Shown here: in pieces, positions 28,155-33,073 of the stretch | Position numbering within the stretch: position 1 is the stretch's first letter | Layout of the letters: the number at the start of each line of letters is the position of its first letter | NCBI RefSeq assembly: GCF_000337615.1 | Contig: NZ_AOII01000088.1 | Location: forward strand, 173,966 to 214,080 | Reading direction: 5' to 3' | DNA from: Natrinema pallidum DSM 3751 | GTDB taxonomy: Archaea; Halobacteriota; Halobacteria; Halobacteriales; Natrialbaceae | DNA: 40,115 bases | The notes under the pieces: model-generated | Seen by the model: the letters and a program-made list of their open reading frames with translations, nothing else | Database searches by the model: none | What the model was told of the DNA's origin: nothing | Made by a program: the position numbers and the translations under genes

Positions 28155-29402
28155 CTACTCGTAGAGCGGGTTGGCGTCGCAGAGGGCCGCGACCTCGGCG
28201 CGGACGTCCTCGATGACGGTTTCGTCCTCGGGGGCGTCGACGACGCGGGCGATCAGGTCGCCGACTTTCCGACAGTCGTCCTCGTCGAAGCCGCGCGTGG
28301 TCAGCGCCGGCGTTCCGGCGCGGATCCCGCTCGGATTGAACGGCGATCGCGTCTCGCCGGGCACCGTGTTCCCGTTGAGGACGATGCCGGCCTCCTCGAG
28401 GGCTTCTTCGGCGTCGCTGCCGGACGTGTCGGGGTGGCTGTCACGCAGGTCGACGAGCACGAGGTGATTGTCGGTGCCGTCCGAGACCAGCGAGAAGCCG
28501 TTCTCCGAGAGCGAGTCGCCGAGCGCCTGCGCGTTCGCGACCGTCTGCTCGGCGTATTCGGTGAACGCGGGCTGAAGCGCTTCCTTGAAGCCGACGGCCT
28601 TGCCGGCGACGTTGTGCATCAGCGGGCCGCCCTGACCGCCGGGGAAGACCGCCGAGTCGATGTCGTCGGCGTACTCCTCGTCGCACATGACGATCCCGCC
28701 GCGACCGGCGCGGATGGTCTTGTGGGTCGAGCCGGTGACGAAGTCGGCGATGCCGACCGGCGAGGGGTGGACGCCCGCGGCGACGAGTCCCGTGATGTGG
28801 GCGATGTCCGCGAGGTGGTAGGCGTCGACGTCGTCGGCTGCCGCCTGGATGCGTTCGAAGTCGATCTCGCGCGGGTACGCGGAGTAGCCCGAGACGATGA
28901 TGTCCGGGTCGAACTCGGCGGCGTGGTCGGCGAGGGCGTCGTAGTCGATATAGCCCGTTTCGGGATCGACTTCGTACTGCTCGACCTCGTAGAGCTGGCC
29001 CGTGAAGTTCGCTGGATGGCCGTGGCTGAGGTGGCCGCCGTGGTTCAGATCCAGCGACAGGATCTTGTCGCCGGGCTCGAGCATCGCGAAGTATACTGCC
29101 TGATTTGCCTGCGTGCCCGCGTGGGGCTGGACGTTGACGTGATCGGCACCGAACAGTTCCGTCGCGCGTTCGATCGCGAGTTCCTCGACCGCGTCGGCGT
29201 ACTCACAACCGCCGTAGTAGCGCTCGCCGGGATAGCCTTCGGCGTACTTGTTCGTCAGCGCACTGCCCTGCGCGTCGATGACCGCCTCGCTGGCGTGGTT
29301 CTCGCTGGCGATCATCTGCAACGTCTCTCGCTGACGGTCTACCTCGCCCTCGAGGGCGTCGGCAACGGCGGGATCGACGTCCCGAACCTGATCGTGGTCC
29401 AT
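28155..29402 (-). CDS. glyA: Serine hydroxymethyltransferase
   Basis: The 415-aa PLP enzyme converts serine and tetrahydrofolate to glycine and 5,10-methylenetetrahydrofolate. The PLP lysine is Lys228 in TGSTHKTIRAGRGG. Other landmarks are 'MIASENHASEAV', 'NKYAEGYPGERYYGGCEYAD' and the glycine loop 'HAGTQANQAVYFAML' for cofactor phosphate. 'LDLNHGGHLSHG' and the C-terminal 'NPSGIRAGTPALTTRGF' complete the family pattern. The start at 29402 (MDHDQVRDVD) is set by a CACTTATG element 28 nt upstream. The in-frame ATG at 29429 lies inside that element. It feeds FolD, ThyA and PurD in this window. Confidence 0.95.
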   Translation of the reverse strand: MDHDQVRDVDPAVADALEGEVDRQRETLQMIASENHASEAVIDAQGSALTNKYAEGYPGERYYGGCEYADAVEELAIERATELFGADHVNVQPHAGTQANQAVYFAMLEPGDKILSLDLNHGGHLSHGHPANFTGQLYEVEQYEVDPETGYIDYDALADHAAEFDPDIIVSGYSAYPREIDFERIQAAADDVDAYHLADIAHITGLVAAGVHPSPVGIADFVTGSTHKTIRAGRGGIVMCDEEYADDIDSAVFPGGQGGPLMHNVAGKAVGFKEALQPAFTEYAEQTVANAQALGDSLSENGFSLVSDGTDNHLVLVDLRDSHPDTSGSDAEEALEEAGIVLNGNTVPGETRSPFNPSGIRAGTPALTTRGFDEDDCRKVGDLIARVVDAPEDETVIEDVRAEVAALCDANPLYE

Positions 29403-29426
29403 ATCCGAAATGCAGTCTGGCGGCCG

Positions 29427-29434
29427 CATAAGTG
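29427..29434 (-). promoter_or_regulatory. TATA-like element before glyA
   Basis: The minus strand reads CACTTATG, centred about 28 nt before the ATG at 29402. It decides the start by making the ATG at 29429 part of the promoter. Confidence 0.4.
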
Positions 29435-29670: not shown

Positions 29671-31845
29671 ATGATCGAGTGGGCGGTAGATGGCGACACT
29701 CTCCACGTCACCGACGCGGATAACGCCGAGCTAGCGGTCACTGGTGACGACCTCGACGTCAGCAGTTCCGACAGCGACGTCTCGCGCCCGGTCGACGAGA
29801 CGGTCGCCGTGACGACGGACGAGCTACGGTTTCCCCACGCGGTCGTCTACGCGTTCTCCCTCGGGTGCGAGGAACAGCACGAACTCGATCCCGGCGGCGA
29901 GCCGCTCGCGCTGTCGCCCGGCGAGTACATCGTGGACATCGATACCGAGATCAAGGCCTACCTCCAGTTCGCCGGGGAAGCGACGATCGAAAAGACCGAC
30001 GGCTACGAGGAGATCGTCGTCTCTTTTCCGGATCGAACGCGCGTCATCCTCGGCGTTCGCTGTCGCCACGAACTCCCCGCCGGTACGATCACCGTGCCGG
30101 ACTCCCCGTCGGCGATCGCCGAGGCTATCACGCACATGGCCGCCTCGCACAAGACCACCCGGCCGGACCGATCCTACCCCACGCTCCGCGGTCATCCATC
30201 GCTGATCGAACGCGGCGAACGCCTCGAAATCCCCGACTGCATCCGAGCCGATACGCCGGATCACGGGATCGAACTGATCCTCCCGCCGGACTACGAGTCG
30301 CTGTTCGTGGCCGCGCCGCTGGCGTACTACCTGCAGGCAACCGTCCGGACGACCGACGATGGACCGGGCTCTCGTGCCGGAGCCGATTCCGACCGGCCGC
30401 GGCTCCGACTCCGCGATCACGACCGCGAGGAGGAACTGTCACCGATGCCGGATCTCGAGCGCGATGTCGAGCGACTCCTTCGAAAGACGTTCTTCCTCGA
30501 TTGCCTCGCCCGGAACGCCGGTCCCCACGGGACCACCCTCTCCGAGAGCAGTCTGCTCGCGGCCCTTGGTCTCGACGCCAGCGTGCTCTATCATGCGTCG
30601 CCCCAGGATCGGTTGGCGACCTACCTCGACGTCCCCTACGCGGCGATCAAGCATCGCCTGCCGGAGTGGCACCTCTCGACGTACGTTTCCCCGACCTACG
30701 ACAGCGTCGAGACGCTGCCCTTCCTGCTCGACCGGTTGAGCATGATTTACACGCCCCAAACCTCGGAGCTCGAGGGGCAGGAACTTGTCGAGCGGTCGCT
30801 CGAGGACTTCTATCGGGGCGAGGGCGGCCCCGCCGAATTCGTGTCGGGTATCGAAGCTACGCCGACGGTCGGATCGAGTGGCTCCGGACGCGGTCGGGCC
30901 ACCACCGGCCAGGTCGCCTCGGTCGATATCGTCAAACCCGAACTCCGAAGCGGCCGCACGCACGGATGGCTCGCGGACGGCGTTCCGATCGACGTTTTCA
31001 AATCGACGCCCACGGCCTACCACAACCGATTGGAGTTCCTCGAGCAGGCGAGCGATTCGACCTCGATCTGTGTCGTCCTCAACGATCCGGAGATGGCCGG
31101 CGAGCACGACGATGTCGCCGAAATCTATCGCCGGCGCTCCGAGGAGCTCACGATCGATCTCACCGTCGCGGAGTCCCTCGAGACGGCCGCCCTCGCCCGC
31201 GTCCTGGAGGACGACAACGACTTCGTTCACTACATCGGCCACTGCGAAACCGGCGGACTGTGCTGCCCCGACGGAACCCTCGCGACCTCGAGTCTCGACC
31301 GCTGTAATGCACAGACGTTCTTCCTGAACGCCTGCGGGTCCTTCTACGAGGGCATGAACCTGATCGAAAAGGGAAGCGTCGCGGGCGCGGTCACCGTCAC
31401 CAAGGTGTTGAACGACCACGCCGTCAAGGTCGGATCGACGTTCGCAAAGTTACTGGTTCACGGCTTCAGCATCGAACGCGCGATGGTGCTCGCTCGGCGG
31501 CGGATCATGATGGGGAAAGACTACGCCGTCGTCGGTGACGGCACCCACTCGCTTACCCAGGCGGAAAGCCGCAATCCGACGACCGCGCGACTCGAGGAAC
31601 TCGGGGAGGGCGAAAACGACGGGCAGTACCCGCTGTCGCTCGATTGCTACTCGACGCGGGTGACCGGCTCGTACTACTACCCACACACCGAAACCAACGA
31701 CTACGCCTATCTCTGCGGGAACGAGTCGAACTTTACGCTGACGGAGCCGGAGCTGGCGACGATGCTCGCGGAGACGGAGGCGTCGGTAATCTACGACGGC
31801 GATATCTACTGGTCAAAAGAACTGAGCAAGCGGTTCGATCGGTGA
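29671..31845 (+). CDS. CHAT-domain (caspase-fold) protein
   Basis: The 724-aa soluble protein ends in a CHAT domain, a caspase-like cysteine-peptidase fold. The predicted dyad is His524 in FVHYIGHCETGG and Cys555 in FFLNACGSFYEG, each at the end of a hydrophobic strand as in caspases. 'GSVAGAVTVTKVLNDHAVKV' and 'FAKLLVHGFSIERAMVLARR' continue the fold. Residues 1-225 are mostly beta-strands with an acidic surface. About 255-360 is helical, containing 'LERDVERLLRKTFFLDCLAR' and 'DRLATYLDVPYAAIKHRLPE'. A low-complexity linker is at 395-413. There is no TPR, signal peptide or membrane helix. Some bacterial CHAT proteases act in defence by cleaving gasdermins or partner proteins, but no such partner is visible here. 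The role is unknown. Codon use is native. Confidence 0.78.
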   Translation: MIEWAVDGDTLHVTDADNAELAVTGDDLDVSSSDSDVSRPVDETVAVTTDELRFPHAVVYAFSLGCEEQHELDPGGEPLALSPGEYIVDIDTEIKAYLQFAGEATIEKTDGYEEIVVSFPDRTRVILGVRCRHELPAGTITVPDSPSAIAEAITHMAASHKTTRPDRSYPTLRGHPSLIERGERLEIPDCIRADTPDHGIELILPPDYESLFVAAPLAYYLQATVRTTDDGPGSRAGADSDRPRLRLRDHDREEELSPMPDLERDVERLLRKTFFLDCLARNAGPHGTTLSESSLLAALGLDASVLYHASPQDRLATYLDVPYAAIKHRLPEWHLSTYVSPTYDSVETLPFLLDRLSMIYTPQTSELEGQELVERSLEDFYRGEGGPAEFVSGIEATPTVGSSGSGRGRATTGQVASVDIVKPELRSGRTHGWLADGVPIDVFKSTPTAYHNRLEFLEQASDSTSICVVLNDPEMAGEHDDVAEIYRRRSEELTIDLTVAESLETAALARVLEDDNDFVHYIGHCETGGLCCPDGTLATSSLDRCNAQTFFLNACGSFYEGMNLIEKGSVAGAVTVTKVLNDHAVKVGSTFAKLLVHGFSIERAMVLARRRIMMGKDYAVVGDGTHSLTQAESRNPTTARLEELGEGENDGQYPLSLDCYSTRVTGSYYYPHTETNDYAYLCGNESNFTLTEPELATMLAETEASVIYDGDIYWSKELSKRFDR

Positions 31846-32020: not shown

Positions 32021-32215
32021 TTATTGTAAACTTTGATAGAATATTGCCTTTGTCTCGAGTCGATGGCCGCGCCTCGCTCACAGATCGACTGGGAGGTTTT
32101 CATCTCGCCGGTCCTGGAAGTGATATCGCGTTTTCATCGGCGAACTAACGAATTATTGGTCAAAAATTACCGGTACAGGCCCCGAGAGAGAAGTTCTGGC
32201 GTGAAAACGGCCACC

Positions 32216-32226
32216 AAAATTAAGTA
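32216..32226 (+). promoter_or_regulatory. Proximal TATA-like element of tbsP
   Basis: AAAATTAAGTA is centred about 34 nt before the ATG at 32255, allowing a nearly leaderless transcript. It supports the internal start over the longer open frame. Confidence 0.4.
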
Positions 32227-32254
32227 CGACGCTCTCGATTACTTCTGTATAGGC

Positions 32255-33073
32255 ATGACCTCGAATTTACTTAATCACCAAATTGACGATATCCTCGGGT
32301 CCGTGCTCGAGGACGTGAGCGGTACTATCTACATGGTCAACCCGTCACGGGATGCCATTGAAGAGTTCATTTCCGTCGCGACTGCGTTCGACGGCGACCT
32401 GCCCTCGGTCCGCATGCTCGCCGACGAACGCACCCTGAAAGACGTCATGGACGACTTCATCGTCGCCTCGAACGCCGCCGACCTCATCAGCGAGGACGCG
32501 CTGTCGCTGCGAACGCTCGCGGAAGCGCCCGAAAACTCGCTGCTGGTCAGCGAGGACCGCGTCGTTGCCCTCGTCCACGCCGACGACCGCGTCGGCGGGC
32601 TCACCACGGACGACGAGAGCTTCGTCGAAGATACCTACGACACCTACGCGGGCCGCTGGGAGGACGCCACCGACTTCAACCTCCGTACGCCGCCGATCAC
32701 GGCCGTCCGCGAAACGCTGTCCGACGAGATCAGCCCCGAGGCCGAGGCCGACTTCACCGCCATCCTCGACTCCCTCGAGACCGCTCGCGGCGACGGCGAT
32801 GGCCTCGACGAGGTCACCATCTCCCTGCTCGTGGCGGCCAAGAACGAAGCGCTGCTCTACGACATCAGCAAGTGGGGCGAGGACGTCGGCATCGCCTCCA
32901 AAGCGACCTTCTCCCGGACGAAGACCAAGCTCGAGGATATGGGCCTGATCGACACCGAGAAGGTCCCGATCGACGTCGGCCGACCGCGGCTCCGCCTGAA
33001 GATCGGCGACGAGCGCCTCAGCGAGGCCGACAACGGTCAGCTCGCGACCGTCGCACAGTCCATCCTGAACTAA
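32255..33073 (+). CDS. tbsP: Transcriptional regulator TbsP
   Basis: The 272-aa protein matches the haloarchaeal DUF5821/TbsP family, a DNA-binding regulator described in Haloferax as working with TrmB on gluconeogenic gapII control. Conserved parts are 'SGTIYMVNPSRDAIEEFISV', 'SVRMLADERTLKDVMDDFIV', 'NSLLVSEDRVVALV' and the C-terminal winged helix 'GEDVGIASKATFSRTKTKLE' followed by 'PIDVGRPRLRLKIGDE'. The N-terminal half resembles an effector-binding domain. The ATG at 32255 (MTSNLLNHQIDDILG) is supported by the near TATA element. The frame extends 74 codons upstream without typical composition. That it regulates central carbon metabolism here is inferred from the family. Confidence 0.88.
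   Translation: MTSNLLNHQIDDILGSVLEDVSGTIYMVNPSRDAIEEFISVATAFDGDLPSVRMLADERTLKDVMDDFIVASNAADLISEDALSLRTLAEAPENSLLVSEDRVVALVHADDRVGGLTTDDESFVEDTYDTYAGRWEDATDFNLRTPPITAVRETLSDEISPEAEADFTAILDSLETARGDGDGLDEVTISLLVAAKNEALLYDISKWGEDVGIASKATFSRTKTKLEDMGLIDTEKVPIDVGRPRLRLKIGDERLSEADNGQLATVAQSILN

Follow-up and report, generated by a model that had tools for sequence, protein, structure and literature searches.

The gene at positions 29671–31845 (forward strand, ATG start) of a 40 115-nucleotide stretch of the Natrinema pallidum DSM 3751 genome (hereafter the window) encodes a 724-residue protein whose C-terminal part is a divergent branch of the CHAT peptidases with the caspase–hemoglobinase fold. Through its family almost all haloarchaea possess a caspase-fold protease whose dyad is intact; the distant cousins of such proteases run cell death in animals. 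The protein belongs to clade A of a haloarchaeal family that comprises two clades (A and B), and its nearest named orthologues are those of Natrinema gari and N. altunense (95%). In the collection of papers searched, none linked the term CHAT domain to haloarchaea or Haloferax. The reading frame and its HYIGH and LNACGS motifs were found where an earlier sequence-only reading had placed them.

The CHAT peptidase domain and its C-terminal extension span residues 412–724 (30904–31842, forward strand). Alignment of homologues located the HYIGH motif (31228–31242, forward strand), which contains H520 and the predicted catalytic H524, and the LNACGS motif (31324–31341, forward strand), which contains the predicted catalytic C555 and S557. 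H520, H524, C555 and S557 are invariant in 126 homologues. In a set of 144 rows (140 haloarchaeal and four non-haloarchaeal homologues) H524 is kept by every haloarchaeal row and C555 by 139 of the 140, the last one having a gap at this position. When searched alone, the window protein gave no significant match in Pfam, NCBIfam, PADLOC or the PDB sequences, and it is also missed by the Pfam CHAT model (PF12770), for which it is too divergent. The same model matched 21 of 60 family members at E ≤ 1 (best value 1.3e-5), and one clade-A homologue reached the curated cutoff. Profile–profile comparison (hhalign) with a set of 13 canonical CHAT domains, taken from further genomes in the same phylum, gave 95.8% (E 7.9e-9); the alignment ran over 131 columns and brought the His and Cys motifs of both profiles into register. 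The full-length AlphaFold model had a pLDDT of 88.7 and a pTM of 0.88. In a Foldseek search the CHAT part found SAVED-CHAT as its best match among solved structures (PDB entry 8tl0; E 1.2e-8), followed by separase (4e-7) and gingipain (4e-5). The alignments take in no more of the chain than the CHAT part, which keeps the TM-scores low, and those with separase and gingipain were long and superposed poorly (r.m.s.d. 14–18 Å). The C-terminal CHAT domain and the His524/Cys555 dyad of the sequence-only reading are thus upheld: a caspase-type fold was predicted and both residues are conserved.

Two positions of the putative substrate pocket were compared with canonical CHAT by sequence alignment. 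E478 is conserved, and in the hhalign comparison it falls opposite a Glu that is invariant in the canonical domains. The near-invariant Asp that follows the Cys in canonical CHAT (D258 of the domain L188) aligns with N581 of the window protein; this near-invariance comes from the 13-sequence alignment made here and not from a published family definition, and was therefore not used to exclude membership. Position 581 is Asn in 86 and Asp in 17 of 103 clade-A sequences and Asn in 34 of 37 clade-B sequences. With Asn in place of the canonical Asp, the pocket chemistry may differ from that of canonical CHAT.

The N-terminal region, residues 1–372 (29671–30786, forward strand), was predicted with high confidence (AlphaFold pLDDT 91.7, pTM 0.87) to be nearly all β in residues 1–142 and α/β in residues 143–372. 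It is joined to the CHAT part by a linker (residues 376–411; 30796–30903, forward strand) that is predicted by AlphaFold to be disordered and evolves faster than the remainder of the protein. R173, P176, D277, R281, P331, W333 and P350 are invariant within this region in a 60-row alignment. When the fold of residues 1–372 was compared with the PDB and with viral models, nothing matched at E < 1e-3, and PDB sequence searches gave chance matches only. Matches to glycosidase β-sandwiches were disbelieved, being weak (best E 5e-3, TM about 0.2). The region, described earlier as a β-rich and helical N-terminus that could not be assigned, indeed has no counterpart in Pfam, NCBIfam or the PDB. Among 393 genomes sampled within the phylum it was found in the Halobacteria and, outside them, in four genomes belonging to a single other family, probably methanogens; in those four it is likewise joined to a CHAT part.

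SAVED-CHAT, although it ranks first among solved folds in the comparison with the CHAT part, differs in its N-terminal half: residues 1–372 gave no match to 8tl0, and there was no Pfam match to a SAVED domain ahead of CHAT. Separase and the TPR-CHAT protein Csx29 resemble the window protein in that a caspase-type dyad ends a large regulatory chain, which in Csx29 is allosterically switched (PMC10028731). Unlike Csx29, the window protein has no TPR match and no type III-E CRISPR context among its neighbours. A second, inactive caspase copy of the separase type was not detected upstream of the domain, residues 1–372 showing neither profile similarity nor a fold match in comparisons that could miss a very degenerate copy. 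The absence of an adjacent TPR or gasdermin gene, pointed out in the sequence-only reading, was confirmed. Prokaryotic metacaspases (C14) share the caspase-type fold and the His–Cys dyad but form a different family, which was present in five of 114 archaeal genomes (PMC3501461), whereas the present family reaches 94% of the good haloarchaeal genomes.

The protein can no longer be called an orphan, since a homologue of either clade is present in 354 of 377 high-quality Halobacteria genomes, the other 23 giving no match. The dN/dS ratio is 0.07–0.13 for the C-terminal part and 0.13–0.18 for residues 1–372, and the family is under strong purifying selection. In a tree from a rapid search, with SH-aLRT as the sole measure of support, clade A (37 rows) had a support of 99 and clade B (34 rows) a support of 100, with the four non-haloarchaeal rows standing apart; judged from this tree by eye, the descent of the family appears to be largely vertical. 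Clade B is multi-copy and is in part carried on megaplasmids. These megaplasmid copies, together with the good genomes that lack a match, indicate that the gene is not strictly essential everywhere. Two clade-B copies lie close together in genome G045 (L115:2-1963 and L115:2962-5064, both on the reverse strand). The window's own genome also contains a second copy, a clade-B protein with 35% identity (G000:C74:41570-43483; L116:6544-8616, reverse strand), which lies near a gene that by inspection resembles one for an AglB-like oligosaccharyltransferase.

In clade A the gene order is kept, with glyA divergent on one side and tbsP on the same strand on the other. In the window these neighbours are glyA (serine hydroxymethyltransferase; 28155–29429, reverse strand) and tbsP (a transcriptional regulator; 32063–33073, forward strand), and the wider surroundings are of a housekeeping kind (folD, RNase P, proteasome α and SBDS). 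They are the two commonest clade-A neighbours, well ahead of the next. Among 115 clade-A loci, drawn from two collections so that some species are counted twice and with gene calls in the fetched loci made by a simple composition score, tbsP adjoins the gene on the same strand in 110, which keep the order glyA–CHAT–tbsP; it is lacking in four, and the remaining locus stops at a contig edge. In clade B a gene for a DUF7504 protein (PF24336) is often found upstream on the same strand, directly so in several families, and a gene for a HalX-domain receiver (PF08663) is often found downstream on the other strand (loci L104, L110, L112, L115, L117, L118, L131, L133, L134, L137 and L208–L221); this arrangement may be a signalling cassette. 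Recurring neighbours therefore exist for both clades, where the sequence-only reading had left the impression of a protein with no partner.

We propose, with moderate confidence, that the protein is a cysteine endopeptidase of the CHAT/separase branch, soluble and intracellular, which carries out N-terminally regulated, limited proteolysis in core or stress physiology. Residues 1–372 would form the regulatory or substrate-selecting part, tethered to the C-terminal peptidase by the flexible linker; on some cue this part would allow the His524–Cys555 dyad to cleave a single specific protein, or a few of them, in the cytoplasm. The outcome would be limited, signalling-type proteolysis rather than bulk degradation or antiviral defence. 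The model for this mode of action is the CHAT protease Csx29, in which the dyad is repositioned allosterically and a σ-factor inhibitor is cut (PMC10028731); by analogy, regulated and limited proteolysis is likely here. Core or stress physiology is favoured over defence by the near-universality of the family, its stable housekeeping locus, the lack of viral relatives and the purifying selection. The neighbours, a metabolic regulator in clade A and often DUF7504 and a HalX receiver in clade B, point to a connection with regulatory circuits.

It was also considered that the protein might be an antiviral or abortive-infection protease, with the N-terminal region as the sensor of infection and the CHAT domain as the part that brings about cell death or arrest. 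Other CHAT proteases, namely SAVED-CHAT and Csx29, serve CRISPR-linked immunity (PMC10028731), and the multi-copy, partly megaplasmid-borne clade B was counted in favour of such a role. The family is, however, near-universal in its class while defence genes are usually patchy, it occupies a fixed locus in clade A, it is under strong and uniform constraint, the PADLOC models gave zero matches for the window protein and no relative was found in viral contigs scanned with full-length and N-terminal profiles. A defensive role is thus unlikely, and the earlier suggestion that the gene belongs to an undescribed (defence) system was not borne out, given in addition the fixed position between glyA and tbsP in housekeeping surroundings.

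The conserved adjacency to tbsP raised the alternative that clade A processes TbsP or is controlled by it, tying proteolysis to the control of gluconeogenic genes. TbsP is a regulator that works with TrmB (PMC13286277, PMC11834397), and the same-strand adjacency in nearly all clade-A loci would fit such a link. The spacing between the two genes is about 100–700 bases, which does not constitute a tight operon, and tbsP occurs without an adjoining clade-A gene in 12 of 12 genomes tested (L176–L187), those of the genus Haloferax included; a specific functional link to TbsP is accordingly quite unlikely. The same 12 genomes led to the rejection of an obligate partnership with TbsP. In nine of these genomes the flank of tbsP also contains glyA, an arrangement that looks like the loss of a CHAT gene once placed between them, or like its never having been inserted there.

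The genus Haloferax was considered separately. Archaeal genomes are said to be without clear caspase homologues, and a caspase-like (LEVDase) activity has been reported in haloarchaea, in extracts of Haloferax volcanii, with no gene assigned to it (PMC3615174). The genus of fourteen genomes was taken as Haloferax because one of its plasmids aligns with Haloferax plasmids at 84% across 42% of 20 kb, a much better match than with plasmids of other genera. In a profile search all 14 contained exactly one copy of the family, of type B and with the dyad intact. A DUF7504 gene lies near it in 14 of the 14 and a HalX receiver in 12. The three of these genomes that were tested have tbsP beside glyA and no CHAT gene at that place.

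The H. volcanii activity might come from the window protein or from its clade-B sister, which would be in keeping with the lack of an assigned gene for that activity and with the single caspase-fold gene of the family per Haloferax genome. E478 presumably favours a basic P1 residue, as we assume from CHAT-like enzymes in general, and the acidic pocket that it would form should disfavour P1 Asp, so that on sequence grounds the pocket looks ill-suited to the activity of the extracts. This argument is a weak one. Asn replaces the canonical CHAT Asp in this protein, so that a basic specificity is not assured. The caspase-like sites of the proteasome could also give LEVDase activity (a reference listed in PMC3615174). 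Altogether the identification is distinctly doubtful, and improbable, too, is the wider proposition that the family has been a class-wide caspase-like regulatory protease with a new type of N-terminal sensor since the common haloarchaeal ancestor and is the missing gene of archaeal caspase-like stress proteolysis. With one copy per Haloferax genome, and gene deletion being routine in that genus, both the function of such a caspase-like protease and the link to the reported activity are directly testable.

A non-catalytic scaffold or binding protein with a retained caspase fold, as the deviation of N581 from canonical CHAT and the loss of the dyad in one non-haloarchaeal homologue might be taken to indicate, is very improbable, as the dyad and S557 are retained in every complete haloarchaeal row across deep divergence. 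This one of the four non-haloarchaeal homologues (L168) is the sole genuine case of dyad loss in the 144-row set; it has Arg at the position of the catalytic His and Asp at that of the catalytic Cys and is probably inactive. A further cysteine, C532 (31264–31266), lies eight residues past the catalytic His and is invariant in 144 of 144 rows, the dyad-less one included.
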